Below are positions 25,304-57,505 of a stretch of 64,000 nucleotides of DNA, one piece after another. A program made the position numbers and the translations under genes. The number at the start of each line of letters is the position of its first letter. Position 1 is the first letter of the stretch. The notes under the pieces were generated by a model. The model did not search any database. It saw only the letters and a list, made by a program, of their open reading frames with translations, and had not been told where the DNA came from. This DNA is from Pseudomonas azotoformans (GTDB lineage Bacteria; Pseudomonadota; Gammaproteobacteria; Pseudomonadales; Pseudomonadaceae), in NCBI RefSeq assembly GCF_001579805.1, contig NZ_CP014546.1, forward strand, positions 5,766,001-5,830,000, read 5' to 3'.

Positions 25304-26766
25304 ACCCCTGGCAGCGCTGATGCTGCTGGCGTTGCAGGGCTGCTCGATGGCGCCGACCTACAAGGTGCCTACTGTTGACCTGCCGGCCGGCTACCGCGAA
25401 CAGACCAGCGAGGGTCCCTGGCACAGCGCGCAACCGTCCGATCAATTGGCCCCCGAATGGTGGACGCTCTACCAGGATTCGCGCCTGAACGACCTGCAAC
25501 AGCAACTGCTCAAGGCCAACCCCGACTTGGCGGCGGCACTCGCGCACTTCGATGCGTCCCAGGCCTATGCCAGCCAATTGCATGCGGGGTTGTTCCCGCA
25601 GATCACCGCCAGCGCGCAGCCATTGCGCCAGCGGCAATCGGACTCGCGGCCGCTGCGAGGGGATACGCAGCCATCGGTGTACAACAGCAACACCGCAGGG
25701 TTTTCACTGAGCTACGACCTGGACCTGTGGGGCAAAATCCGCAACCAGGTGGCGGCCGGAGATGCACAGGCACAGGCGTCCGGCGATGATTTGGCGGTGG
25801 CGCGCTTGAGCCTGCAACATCAGTTGGCGACCTTGTACGTGCAGCTCAACGGGCTGGATGCCCAGGCGCGGATTCTCAAGAGTTCGCTGGATGATTTCAG
25901 CCAGGCATTGCAACTGACTCGCAGCCGATATGAAGGCCAGATTGCGTCGGAGCTCGACCTGACGCGCGCACAGAATCAGTTGGCCGAAGCCAAGGCGCAA
26001 TGGGATGAAGTACAGGGCCAACGCAACCTCACCGAACATGCGATAGGCGAATTGGTGGGCGTGGCCGCCAGTAATTTCAGTTTGTCGCCAAGCGAGAGGT
26101 TGATCGCGCTGCCGGGGATTCCTTCGCAGCTACCGAGCCACCTGCTGCAACGTCGGCCGGATATCGCGGCGGCGGAACGCCGGGTGTTTGCAGCCAATGC
26201 CAATATCGGCGTAGCCAAGGCCGCGTGGTACCCGGACTTCAGCCTGACCGGGCTGATCGGTGGGCAGACGCAAGGCGTCGGCAACCTGCTGTCGGCGGGC
26301 AATCGCTATTGGGCGCTGGGGCCCACTGGTGAACTTGCCGATCTTTGATGGCGGCCGCTTGAGCGCCAATGAACGCCAAGCCAAAGCCGAGTTTGAAGAA
26401 GCCTCGGCGCAATACCGCAGCCATGTCTTGAAAGCGGTGCGCGAAGTCGAGGACAACCTGGCGCAGCTACGAGACCTGCAACAGGAAGCCCAGGATGAGC
26501 AGGCGGCGGCGGATGCGGCGCAACACACACAAACGCTGGCGATGAACAGCTACGAGGCCGGCGCGGTAAGCTACCTGGACGTGGTCACCGCACAGACGGC
26601 AGCCTTGCAGGCACAACGCACGTTGCAGGCGGTACAGACCCGTCAGTTGCAGGCGAGCGTGGGGTTGGTCACCGCGCTCGGTGGGGGTTGGCAATCTGGC
26701 GACCCGGTTTTGCACCAATCAACTTTGCCTGCCCGTCCTTCTGCTTCCCCGTCCGCGCCTCGGTGA
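25287..26766 (+). pseudogene. Outer membrane efflux lipoprotein (OprM/NodT family), frameshifted
   Basis: The start MRLRLKPLAALMLLALQGCSMAPTYKVP carries a lipobox (LQGC) and sits inside the end of the adaptor gene. The first frame gives the N-terminal two-thirds of an OprM-type channel and stops at 26348 after WALGPTGELADL. The expected continuation (VNLPIFDGGRLSANERQAKAEFEEASAQYR ... ALGGGWQ) is found in the +1 frame to 26766. Removing one G from the ACTGGTGAAC stretch at about 26325-26334 would restore WALGPTVNLPIFDGGR. So this is either a recent one-base insertion or a sequencing error. The last 98 bp overlap the convergent DUF4130-type gene; past GGGWQ the tail is unlike OprM. Confidence 0.85.
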
Positions 26767-27508
26767 TCAAACCCGGAATCAACTTGCCCTCGGGCAGGTT
26801 TTTCCAGAACCGGCTCGGCAGATGCCCTTCCATCACCTTGGGGTTCAAGCGCGCCGGGTTGAAGATGTGGCTGTAATAGGTCAGCCACATCGCACTGTGG
26901 GGGTCCTCGACATTCTGTGCCAGCTGGCGCCAAGCCTCGGGGCACTCGCGCTGATGAACAAGCTGCTCGCCGTCGTAATACACCCCATCCAACGGCGTGG
27001 CGATCATCCAGCGATGACGCCCCATCCGTCCTACAAAATGCTGACTGGCGGACTTCAGGATGTCGTGGGCCGGCTCATGCCAGGCCACATATTCCGGCAA
27101 CTCCAGCCCCGCCCCGGCCGGTAGCGCGACAAATCGCACAAACGCATGCAGATGGTGCGCCTCGCGACTGACCTGCTTGATCCGCCGCTGCAACTCACTG
27201 CCCAGCTTGTCCCCCGCCAGCATCGCCGTGCGGTCACCATGACTGACGCGCCACAACACTTCATACAACAGGCTCCAGCGCTGGTCCCCGTGGTAGCAGG
27301 CCGCCGACTCCAGCAATTCCAGCAGGGCCTTGGGCACCCGCGTCTGGTAAGGCCCCAAGCCTTCGGGAATCGGTTCGTCGGTGGCAAACAGGTCCGCCAC
27401 CTCAGCCTCGCCCCAGCTCACCTGGCTGGGGTCGACCTGATGACTCAGCAGCCAGCGCGCCTGCTCGCGCCAGGTGCTGAACAGGTTGTTGCACTCCAGG
27501 CTGATCAT
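26669..27508 (-). CDS. TIGR03915/DUF4130-type putative DNA metabolism protein
   Basis: A 279-residue protein of the family found next to the radical SAM gene upstream of it. Recognisable segments are WSLLYEVLWRVSHGDR, RRIKQVSREAHHLHAFVRF, EYVAWHEPAHDILKSASQHFVGRMGRHRWMIATPLDGVYYDG and WLTYYSHIFNPARLNPKVMEGHLPSRFWKNLPEG. As I recall, related domains are fused to UdgX-type uracil-DNA-binding proteins in some bacteria, which points to DNA repair; its reaction is unknown. The ATG at 27508 overlaps the radical SAM stop as ATGA, so translation is coupled. A GTG two codons earlier is possible. The 3' end runs 98 bp into the convergent efflux gene. Expression should follow the LexA-like box at 28739. 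Confidence 0.8.
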   Translation of the reverse strand: MISLECNNLFSTWREQARWLLSHQVDPSQVSWGEAEVADLFATDEPIPEGLGPYQTRVPKALLELLESAACYHGDQRWSLLYEVLWRVSHGDRTAMLAGDKLGSELQRRIKQVSREAHHLHAFVRFVALPAGAGLELPEYVAWHEPAHDILKSASQHFVGRMGRHRWMIATPLDGVYYDGEQLVHQRECPEAWRQLAQNVEDPHSAMWLTYYSHIFNPARLNPKVMEGHLPSRFWKNLPEGKLIPGLITEARTGKQKDGQAKLIGAKPGRQIANPHRAR

Positions 27509-28725
27509 CCCCACAAGCCCATTTGCTGCGGCTGCGGACGGTCGCGCAATTGCTCGCGCAGCAACACGCTGGTGCTGTCAGCCTGTTGCGGATGGTAGTC
27601 GCTGGTGATGAAAAACGGCTTGGCCTTGGCCAGCACACACCGCATGCGCGCCAGGTCTTCGAAGCGGATCTTGCGCTCGCGGCGCAGGTCCACCAGGCGC
27701 TGGGTAGTGCGCAGGCCAATGCCTGGGATACGCGCGATCAAGGTCGGTTCGGCGCGGTTCAGGTCCAGGGGGAACACCTCACGGTTTTCCAGGGCCCAGG
27801 CCAGCTTGGGGTCGATATCCAGGGCCAGGTGGCCGGGGCCTTGGAAAAGCTCGTTGGCGCTGAAGCCATAACTGCGCAACAGGAAGTCCGCCTGGTACAA
27901 GCGGTGCTCGCGCATCAAGGGCGGTGCTGCCAAAGGCACGCTTTTCGGACTGTTGGGAATGGGGCTGAACGCCGAGTAATACACGCGGCGCAGCTTGAAA
28001 TTACCGTACAACGCCTCGGCGCCGTGGAGGATGGTGCTGTCATCGGTGTCGTCGGCGCCGACGATCAGTTGCGTGCTCTGCCCGGCCGGGGCAAAACGCG
28101 GCGCGCGCGGTTCGTTGCGGACCGTCTGCTCGCCGGTGTAGATGGTCTGCATGGCCTGCTTGATCGACACGATCTTTTTTTCCGGCGCCAGGGTCTGCAG
28201 GCTGGCCTCGGTGGGCAATTCGATGTTCACGCTCAGGCGATCGGCATACTTCCCGGCTTCGGCGATCAGCGCCGGGTCGGCGTCAGGAATGGTCTTGAGA
28301 TGGATATAGCCGCGAAAGTCATGCTCTTCGCGCAGCAATTTGGCGACCCGCACCAACTGCTCCATGGTGTAGTCGGACGAACGGATGATGCCGGAACTGA
28401 GAAACAGCCCGCTGACGCAATTGCGCCGGTAGAAGTCCAGGGTCAGGGTAACCACCTCCTCCGGGCTGAAACGCGCGCGGGGCACGTCGCTGGAGCGGCG
28501 GTTGACGCAGTACTGGCAGTCGTAAAGACAGAAGTTGGTGAGCAACACCTTGAGCAGCGACACACAACGCCCGTCCGGCGTGTAGCTATGGCAAATACCC
28601 ATGCCATCGGTGGAACCCAGCCCCGCCTTGCCCTCGGAGCTGCGCTTGGGCGCGCCACTGCTGGCGCACGAAGCATCGTACTTGGCGGCGTCGGCGAGAA
28701 TGCTGAGTTTTTCGATCAACTGCAT
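27505..28725 (-). CDS. Putative DNA modification/repair radical SAM protein (TIGR03916 type)
   Basis: A 406-residue radical SAM protein. The iron-sulfur motif is C66-x3-C70-x2-C73 (NFCLYDCQYCVNRR), and residues to about 300 form the SAM barrel. The C-terminal part has a helix-hairpin-helix DNA-binding motif (LIARIPGIGLRTTQRLVDLRR), and YYSAFSPIPNSP is a family hallmark. Such proteins generate a 5'-deoxyadenosyl radical; with HhH the substrate is presumably DNA, but no reaction has been shown that I know of. It is first in a two-gene operon with the DUF4130-type partner. A 20-bp LexA-like box lies 14 bp before its ATG, which predicts induction by DNA damage. Confidence 0.85.
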   Translation of the reverse strand: MQLIEKLSILADAAKYDASCASSGAPKRSSEGKAGLGSTDGMGICHSYTPDGRCVSLLKVLLTNFCLYDCQYCVNRRSSDVPRARFSPEEVVTLTLDFYRRNCVSGLFLSSGIIRSSDYTMEQLVRVAKLLREEHDFRGYIHLKTIPDADPALIAEAGKYADRLSVNIELPTEASLQTLAPEKKIVSIKQAMQTIYTGEQTVRNEPRAPRFAPAGQSTQLIVGADDTDDSTILHGAEALYGNFKLRRVYYSAFSPIPNSPKSVPLAAPPLMREHRLYQADFLLRSYGFSANELFQGPGHLALDIDPKLAWALENREVFPLDLNRAEPTLIARIPGIGLRTTQRLVDLRRERKIRFEDLARMRCVLAKAKPFFITSDYHPQQADSTSVLLREQLRDRPQPQQMGLWG

Positions 28726-28738
28726 GGAGGGTTACCGA

Positions 28739-28758
28739 TACTGGTTTTTTGTACAGTA
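28739..28758. promoter_or_regulatory. LexA (SOS) box candidate before the radical SAM gene
   Basis: TACTGGTTTTTTGTACAGTA has the CTG-N10-CAG core with an AT-rich interior and the extended TA...TA flanks of the SOS consensus TACTG(TA)5CAGTA. It matches 11 of 16 positions of the core consensus. It lies 14 bp before the ATG of the radical SAM gene, where LexA would block the promoter. Confidence 0.7.
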
Positions 28759-28796
28759 TCAGGGGAAAGCTGCAGGCTGCAAGCTTGGAGCTTGCA

Positions 28797-28828
28797 GCTA
28801 GACTCTTGCAGCTAGACTCTTGCAGCTG
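28797..28828. repeat. Short tandem repeat (14-bp unit)
   Basis: Two copies of GACTCTTGCAGCTA (the second ending CTG) follow a related AGCTTGCAGCTA, in the gap between the pvdA stop and the radical SAM promoter. It also makes a TTGCAGCT/AGCTGCAG-type foldback. It contains no gene and could vary in copy number. Confidence 0.6.
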
Positions 28829-28832
28829 GAAC

Positions 28833-30170
28833 TCAGCTTGCCGTGGCGAGCAACAGGTCCTGCACCGAGCGCCCCTTGCCGCGCCCACGGTCCAGCGCAT
28901 ACAGCGACGCCGCAATCTCATCCGCACGAATCGGCAATACCGACAGCAAAGTATCGCTCAAGCCGTGGCTGGCCTGGCTGAAGCCTTGGATGTAGATACC
29001 GGCGTTGCAACGCTCATCAGTGACGATGCGGTAGTCACGCGCCACCTCGAAGTCACCCAGGTAGTCTTCCAGCGGCGCGAGCAAGGCGCGGTGCGTCTGG
29101 CGCTCGTAGCCGGTGGCCAGGATCACCGCGTCGTAGTGATTGATGCTGGTGTCGCCGTTGGCGTTGTTGCGCAGCACCAGTTCGATGCCCAGCGGGCCTG
29201 GGGTGGCCTTCTCGACCACGGTCATGGTGCGGAACGCCTGGCGCGCGATGCCGGAGACTTTCTGGCGGTAGAAGATGCCGTAGATACGCTCGATCAGGTC
29301 CAGGTCCACCACCGAATAGTTGGTGTTCTGGTATTCGGCGACCAAACGCTCACGCTCGGCGCCCTCCTGCTGGAACACCAGGTCGGTGAAGGCCGGCGAG
29401 AACACTTCGTTGACGAACGGGCTGTCGTCGGCGGGCTTGAGCGCCGAACCGCGCAGGATCATGTCGACCTGCACCGACGGGAAACTGTCATTCAAGTCGA
29501 TGAAGGCTTCTGCCGCGCTCTGGCCACCGCCGATGATGGCGATGCGCATGGCCTTGCCCTCGACACACGGCTGACTGGCCATGCGCTCCAGGTATTGGGA
29601 ATGGTGGAACACCCGGCTGTCGCCCTTCAGCGCCTTGAACGCTTCAGGAATACGCGGCGTGCCGCCGGCGCTGACCACCACCGAACGGGTGGTGCGCACA
29701 TGTTGCTCACCCAGCGCATCGCGGGAAATCACGCGCAGCGCTTCAACCTGCTGCTGGTGCAGGATCGGCTCGATGGCCAGCACTTCCTCGCCATAGCGCG
29801 CCTGGGCCTGGAACTGCCCGGCGACCCAGCGCAGGTAGTCGTTGTACTCCATGCGGCACGGGTAGAAGGTGCCCAGGTTGATGAAGTCCACCAGGCGGTC
29901 GTGGGCTTTCAGGTAGTTGACGAAGGAATACGGGCTGGTGGGGTTGCGCAGGGTCACCAGGTCCTTGAGGAACGAGATCTGCAGTTCGCTCTGGGTCACC
30001 AGGGTATTGCCGTGCCAGCGGTAGTCAGCCTGTTTGTCGAGAAACAGCACGTCCAGTTTGCCCTGGGCCTTTTCGCGCTCCTGCAGGGCGATGGCCAGCG
30101 CCAGGTTCGAAGGGCCGAAACCGATACCGATCAGGTCGTGAACCGCGGGCGAAGCAATTGCCTGTGTCAT
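28833..30170 (-). CDS. pvdA: L-ornithine N5-monooxygenase PvdA
   Basis: A 445-residue flavin monooxygenase starting MTQAIASPAVHDLIGIGFGPSNLALA at 30170; the frame continues upstream but without family sequence. It hydroxylates ornithine on N5 to make the hydroxamate precursor of pyoverdine. The FAD motif is GIGFGP (15-20), the NADPH motif GGGQSAAE (214-221) and the ATGYERQTH substrate/FAD motif lies near 352-360. An exact PvdS iron-starvation box is 84 bp upstream (30254-30277). The neighbour fpvI reads in the same direction, and the PvdRT-OpmQ exporter lies divergent beyond it, as in P. aeruginosa. Confidence 0.95.
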   Translation of the reverse strand: MTQAIASPAVHDLIGIGFGPSNLALAIALQEREKAQGKLDVLFLDKQADYRWHGNTLVTQSELQISFLKDLVTLRNPTSPYSFVNYLKAHDRLVDFINLGTFYPCRMEYNDYLRWVAGQFQAQARYGEEVLAIEPILHQQQVEALRVISRDALGEQHVRTTRSVVVSAGGTPRIPEAFKALKGDSRVFHHSQYLERMASQPCVEGKAMRIAIIGGGQSAAEAFIDLNDSFPSVQVDMILRGSALKPADDSPFVNEVFSPAFTDLVFQQEGAERERLVAEYQNTNYSVVDLDLIERIYGIFYRQKVSGIARQAFRTMTVVEKATPGPLGIELVLRNNANGDTSINHYDAVILATGYERQTHRALLAPLEDYLGDFEVARDYRIVTDERCNAGIYIQGFSQASHGLSDTLLSVLPIRADEIAASLYALDRGRGKGRSVQDLLLATAS

Positions 30171-57485: not shown

Positions 57486-57505
57486 GACTGGATGTATGTA
57501 CAGTA
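57486..57505. promoter_or_regulatory. LexA (SOS) box candidate before the PPC-domain gene
   Basis: The core CTGGATGTATGTACAG (57488-57503) matches 13 of 16 positions of the SOS consensus CTG(TA)5CAG and is followed by TA, completing CAGTA on one side. It lies in the gap between the immunity-like gene and the PPC gene. A TATTCT -10-like hexamer follows on the minus strand, so the box would overlap the -35 region. Confidence 0.6.

Follow-up and report, generated by a model that had tools for sequence, protein, structure and literature searches.

The 64 000-nucleotide stretch of the Pseudomonas azotoformans genome analysed here, referred to as the window (RefSeq contig NZ_CP014546.1; positions 5766001 to 5830000 of the forward strand), carries a pair of minus-strand genes that encode a radical S-adenosylmethionine (SAM) protein and a DUF4130 protein and are preceded by a LexA-type operator. 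The radical SAM gene (coordinates 27505 to 28725, minus strand) encodes a product of 406 amino acids (aa) that exceeds the cut-offs of TIGR03916 (532.8 bits; cut-off 343.5) and PF04055 (32.2 bits; cut-off 29.5), and TIGR03916 was the only NCBIfam family matched by this protein at E up to 0.001. The partner gene (26669 to 27508, minus strand) encodes a 279 aa protein from its ATG, or 281 aa if translation begins at the alternative GTG at 27514, and its product scores above the TIGR03915 cut-off (197.7 bits; cut-off 112.25). Its DUF4130 domain (PF13566, E 1.6e-35; 122.7 bits, cut-off 27) spans residues 76–240 (26789 to 27283, minus strand) and is the only Pfam domain matched in the partner, where a uracil-DNA glycosylase (UDG) domain is absent. 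The ATG of the partner (27508) and the TGA stop codon of the radical SAM gene overlap as ATGA, in line with translational coupling of the pair, which had been proposed in an earlier examination of the letters alone (the sequence-only reading). The C-terminal tail of the partner was also found to overlap convergently, by ~98 bp (26669 to 26766), with a frame ending at 26766 that reads as an efflux outer-membrane protein.

The letters at 28739 to 28758 are TACTGGTTTTTTGTACAGTA, an exact match to TACTG-N10-CAGTA that reads TACTGTACAAAAAACCAGTA on the gene strand (28758 to 28739), and this site is assigned as a LexA-type operator on the basis of the exact match and of its conservation in orthologs. 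The same 20-bp site had been identified in the sequence-only reading, but with 14 bp between the box and the start codon, where the actual count is 13 bases (28726 to 28738; ATG at 28725). The exact pattern occurs once in the window, and with up to one mismatch three sites were found against 0.47 expected, three being reached in one of 100 shuffles. The frame upstream, which encodes a lysine/ornithine monooxygenase (PF13434) and reads as the pyoverdine gene product PvdA, is on the same strand and ends at 28833, and therefore the 107-bp gap in which the operator lies belongs to the control region of the radical SAM gene.

Conservation of the operator among relatives

The promoters of orthologs were scanned, a test that had been set beforehand as one capable of refuting LexA control and that instead favoured it, using the 100 bp before the ATG, with tiles and the reversed pattern as controls, and counting as relatives only profile matches above cut-off. 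A draw of 149 genomes from the genus included 112 with a TIGR03916 ortholog, and CTG-N10-CAG was present before 111 of these, always 12–20 bp before the ATG, against 131 of 4356 control tiles (3%) and two of 112 for the reversed pattern. The single exception, L286, reads CTGTATGAAAAACCACTG, in which the right half no longer fits. The box was likewise found in 79 of 80 named loci, which were the top 80 among 588 confirmed stretches and overlap in species with the genus draw. Outside the genus, CTG-N10-CAG was found in 3/3 loci of the same family, 6/8 of the same order and 6/14 of the same class; the last figure rises to 9/14 once boxes that run into the start codon (L196, L197 and L206) are included.

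In loci from other classes of the phylum the CTG box was found in only one of 54, and all 54 carry GAAC-N7-GAAC or GTTC-N7-GTTC instead, at a median distance of 5 bp before the start codon and a maximum of 84 bp, whereas these motifs occur in three of 2110 control tiles (0.1%). The 54 loci appear to belong to Alphaproteobacteria, judging from the motif and the names of some homologs, and GTTC-N7-GTTC is the alphaproteobacterial LexA motif according to PMC8565304. If SOS control were not under selection, it would be difficult to account for an operator type that varies with the lineage in front of a constant target gene.

The misses of the scan are L037 and L038, from one order-level family, together with L173, L174 and L178 (same-class family f58), L049 and L168. 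L037 and L038 would be Acinetobacter-like, by inference only, and Acinetobacter is described as lacking LexA in PMC11332147. The three f58 loci have a palindrome at the position of the CTG box before the radical SAM ATG, GGTCTCATCCAATGAGACC in L174 and variants of it in the others, which is possibly another LexA motif.

The conserved sites also provide a view of the promoter. Three positions left free by the search pattern CTG-N10-CAG, namely the outer T and A on the left and the T that follows CTG, each carry 2.00 bits across 71 non-redundant sites, compared with 1.81 and 1.00 bits for the right outer pair and 0.24–0.25 bits for the flanks. TTG is found 16–18 bp before TACTGT in 98 of the 111 ortholog sites (85 at 17 bp and 13 at 18 bp). 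The left half of the operator, TACTGT (28753 to 28758, minus strand), therefore probably doubles as the -10 element, and the probable -35 hexamer is TTGCAG (28777 to 28782, minus strand), 18 bp before it. A repressor site that overlaps the -10 element is a classic way of blocking polymerase.

The genome's lexA1 gene has two boxes of the CTG-N10-CAG type directly before its ATG, and a second lexA gene, lexA2, has a box of a different type. Together, the ortholog operators and the base-level constraint strongly support the LexA control put forward in the sequence-only reading, and from these sequence comparisons it is very likely that LexA represses the pair. A tie to DNA damage would follow from LexA control, and the conserved switch is the reason for counting the pair in the emergency DNA-repair kit of the cell. 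The SOS regulon of P. aeruginosa comprises 15 genes, according to PMC13114513. No report of SOS control of the pair in Pseudomonas was found in the literature searched, a coverage that largely leaves out subscription journals.

A conserved core and an optional glycosylase domain

TIGR03916 and TIGR03915 occur together in 112 of the 149 genus genomes and neither is present in the other 37, and the partner lies downstream of the radical SAM gene in 276 of 278 loci (exceptions L171 and L176). The partner of many relatives is longer and includes a fused UDG domain of the UdgX type (PDB 6ail, E 3e-72; presumably the Mycobacterium smegmatis protein). The UDG motif was found in the partner in 46/52 loci from other classes, 8/14 from the same class, 0/8 from the same order and 1/3 from the same family, counts that are made by motif, with three of the six motif-less partners from other classes cut by the end of the locus and one (L153) of UDG-bearing length. 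It was present in only two of 199 Pseudomonas loci, a set that includes the locus studied here twice (L001 and L006), species recurring between collections and two cut partners (L006 and L127). A small Pseudomonas clade (L024, L029 and L017) has a long partner, with the UDG motif in two of the three.

In other lineages the partner thus ends in a domain homologous to UdgX, but this domain is absent from the partner examined here and no TIGR03914/UdgX match was found in the P. azotoformans genome at E up to 0.001. The two UDG-superfamily genes (PF03167) of this genome read as Mug-like and Ung. The link to UdgX drawn in the sequence-only reading hence does not extend to this genome. When the UDG label was placed on a radical SAM protein tree of 80 rows (obtained from 94 labellable rows by thinning at 95% identity, after a manual choice of 21 Pseudomonas-side loci, and with L017 from Pseudomonas and L153 scored as UDG by partner length in the absence of the motif), nine changes were obtained, at least four of them forced by well-supported branches. 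As UDG has been gained or lost repeatedly while the radical SAM and DUF4130 proteins stay together, the latter two form the core machine, and the comparison suggests that the core remains under SOS control from class to class as the operator type changes and UDG comes and goes.

LexA-type control has been described for an operon of UDG (COG1573) and COG4277 genes, with evidence in Bacteroidetes and with Verrucomicrobia and Alphaproteobacteria cited, in PMC8565304. COG4277 is taken here to be the TIGR03916 radical SAM family. This fits the matches to TIGR03916 in the control genomes of Caulobacter vibrioides, Bacteroides ihuae and Thermotoga maritima, over the cut-off in two of them, and to TIGR03915, over the cut-off in Caulobacter and Bacteroides ihuae. 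The COG1573-COG4277 operon is under LexA control, as the present pair very likely is, and its UDG adjoins a DNA-associated partner; the present pair differs in having no fused UDG, a genome without a UdgX match, a CTG-N10-CAG operator and the order radical SAM then DUF4130. It is regarded as the UDG-less variant of this SOS-controlled, UDG-bearing relative. Since predictions or reports of LexA control already exist for the relative in three other groups (PMC8565304), any novelty of the regulatory idea is confined at most to the UDG-less form in Pseudomonas. A search of the literature for DUF4130, TIGR03915, TIGR03916 and PF13566 found PMC3765255 alone, and none was found for UdgX with radical SAM, again with subscription journals largely outside the coverage.

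A DHH/RecJ fold was considered for DUF4130 but not adopted. Re-examination of the Foldseek matches, in a list of structural neighbours that covers residues 1–201 of the partner model, gave neighbours of the DHH/RecJ fold that are consistent but weak, none with E under 0.001, and profile comparison with RecJ was no better than with two controls. Neither protein of the pair had a PADLOC match at E up to 0.1.

The radical SAM protein, its proposed role and alternatives

The Cys66-x3-Cys70-x2-Cys73 motif expected to bind the radical SAM cluster (28507 to 28530, minus strand) is present as given in the sequence-only reading and is invariant in 25 diverse members of the family. Codons 20–54 (28564 to 28668, minus strand) specify a further set, Cys20, Cys45-His46 and Cys54, that is invariant in the same 25 members and at least 97% conserved in 85, making it a candidate second iron–sulfur (Fe-S) site or hydrogen-atom donor and the best handle on the chemistry. 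A helix-hairpin-helix (HhH) had also been claimed for this protein. In the region concerned (residues 304–357; 27655 to 27816, minus strand), HHH_5 (E 0.047, residues 304–346) and HHH_3 (E 0.0027, residues 320–357) both fall under the Pfam cut-off and there are weak ComEA/RuvA matches, but the stretch of residues 320–357 is modelled with a predicted local distance difference test score (pLDDT) of 82–92. Around the cluster motif, weak sequence matches in the PDB were to 4wcx ('Biotin and thiamin synthesis associated'), HydG and HydE (E 0.0065 to 0.14). The TIGR03916 gene was considered for identity with PA0069 of P. aeruginosa, which is reported to belong to the LexA regulon, and this was rejected, as the name PA0069 goes with a different radical SAM family, a member of which is encoded at another site in the genome (L003, NF033668). 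In viral contigs, two relatives were found among 59 pattern matches.

It is considered fairly probable that the two genes form an SOS-induced operon whose products process a DNA lesion by radical SAM chemistry. From the anatomy of the promoter and its conservation, LexA1 bound to an operator containing the -10 element would keep the pair off, and DNA damage would release it via RecA-stimulated cleavage of LexA. One transcript would then yield two proteins, tightly coupled through the ATGA overlap. The radical SAM protein would carry a 4Fe-4S cluster on Cys66, Cys70 and Cys73, cleave SAM to the 5'-deoxyadenosyl radical and bind DNA through its C-terminal HhH. The DUF4130 protein would be an obligate partner, probably binding DNA or the lesion, and the two may act as a complex that processes the lesion by radical chemistry, with direct reversal or conversion of a damaged base more likely than cutting. 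Cys20, Cys45 (with His46) and Cys54 could be ligands of a second Fe-S cluster or the source of the returning hydrogen atom, and in many other lineages the UdgX fused to the partner would add the capture of uracil or apurinic/apyrimidinic (AP) sites as an optional module that is absent here. Among the possible chemistries, the most likely is one in which a DNA lesion is processed directly by a radical. A gene with the same product name in Acinetobacter sp. Tol 5, upregulated on desiccation according to PMC13130816, was counted as support for this role.

Spore photoproduct lyase is a radical SAM DNA repair enzyme that acts by direct reversal, and to our knowledge its reaction is essentially the only one in which radical SAM enzymes are known to reverse DNA damage directly. 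If the present hypothesis is right, both would use a radical SAM cluster on damaged DNA, but no spore photoproduct lyase chain was among 22 PDB matches at E up to 1, and the invariant Cys20/Cys45/Cys54 set and the HhH distinguish the TIGR03916 protein. A second, widespread direct reversal under SOS control, in pseudomonads that are harmless and easy to work with, would then represent a new repair chemistry, which is advanced here as a hypothesis. A more specific version is possible, though doubtful as a whole: a UDG-independent, damage-induced radical SAM enzyme for DNA repair, in which Cys20/Cys45/Cys54 form a second Fe-S (or thiyl donor) site and whose partner has a fold that is still to be described, acting on a class of lesion that no known repair enzyme reverses, with UdgX elsewhere as a substrate-feeding add-on. 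The pair offers a testable handle on these proposals, comprising a gene pair, an inducing signal, invariant residues and a UdgX-free version in which to study the core activity alone.

Several observations weigh against SOS-induced lesion processing. The operator is absent or different in two of the eight same-order loci and, even counting start-codon overlaps, in five of the 14 same-class loci. A sigma-70 consensus scan of 28600 to 28900 gave no promoter, and TACTGT would be a weak -10 element. The radical SAM model, from an alignment of close relatives, is poor overall (pLDDT 61.6). Upstream neighbours are not conserved, as no Pfam family occurs in more than three of 79 loci when the neighbour is defined as the longest stop-to-stop frame in a flank of at most 1.5 kb, some of these frames being cut or spurious; among the 25 of 61 upstream-neighbour families listed, the repair families are IMS (3) and RecX (2). 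Finally, exact TACTG-N10-CAGTA is not enriched genome-wide, with five sites against five for the reversed pattern. This equality also speaks for the box being a chance palindrome and the pair lying outside LexA control, but the conservation of the site, the switching of motifs among relatives and the base-level constraint make that extremely unlikely.

Other roles for the pair can be envisaged. It may be the remnant of a UdgX-centred base excision system in which uracil or AP sites are captured by UdgX and the resulting adduct is processed by the radical SAM and DUF4130 proteins, with Ung or Mug as the glycosylase in Pseudomonas. This would account for the UdgX-type domain on the partner in most loci from other classes, with its PDB match, and for the Ung and Mug-like genes of this genome, and a relative is termed a putative base excision system with UDG in PMC8565304. 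However, the several losses or gains of UDG from a pair that stays together, its rarity in Pseudomonas and the missing UdgX match in this genome make this rather unlikely. That the pair modifies or protects DNA instead of repairing it, with SOS control reflecting stress-induced modification or a role in mutagenesis, appears improbable given the lack of a PADLOC match and of a shared upstream neighbour, although in PMC3765255 a mutagenesis-related enzyme is predicted for DUF4130, in association with SplB-like photolyases and with UDGs 'which might modify thymines'. Action of the radical SAM enzyme on RNA, a cofactor or a protein, with only an indirect SOS link, is very unlikely; the weak PDB matches around the cluster motif are indeed to cofactor enzymes, but the HhH region, the UdgX fusion in relatives and the conserved SOS-type operators in more than one class all speak against this reading.

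LexA-like sites elsewhere in the genome

The five exact TACTG-N10-CAGTA sites of the genome have 10, 8, 7, 7 and 3 A+T bases in the 10-base interior, and the two most AT-rich each lie 13 bp before a radical SAM gene, namely a PA0069-family gene and the TIGR03916 gene. The richest site (L003; genome coordinates 1569141 to 1569160) is that before the PA0069-family ATG, and thus two radical SAM families are found behind LexA-type boxes in one genome. The PA0069 family (NF033668), which is presumably SplB-like (COG1533), shares this arrangement with the TIGR03916 protein but is a separate family. The related pattern TACTGTA-N8-CAG was found at nine sites genome-wide against seven for the reversed control, and these include sites before the yebG gene (PF07130) and the PA0069-family gene, and one located 160 bp from an endonuclease I gene.

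Within the window, a second LexA-like site, TACTGTACATACATCCAGTC (57486 to 57505, minus strand), is found ~70 bp before a 503 aa frame that looks secreted and for which neither Pfam nor NCBIfam gave a match at E up to 0.001. Elsewhere, the same LexA-like site with the same 377 aa neighbouring frame occurs twice in the genome (L296 and L297; positions 19339 and 1478319), a repeat that resembles a duplicated island or prophage.

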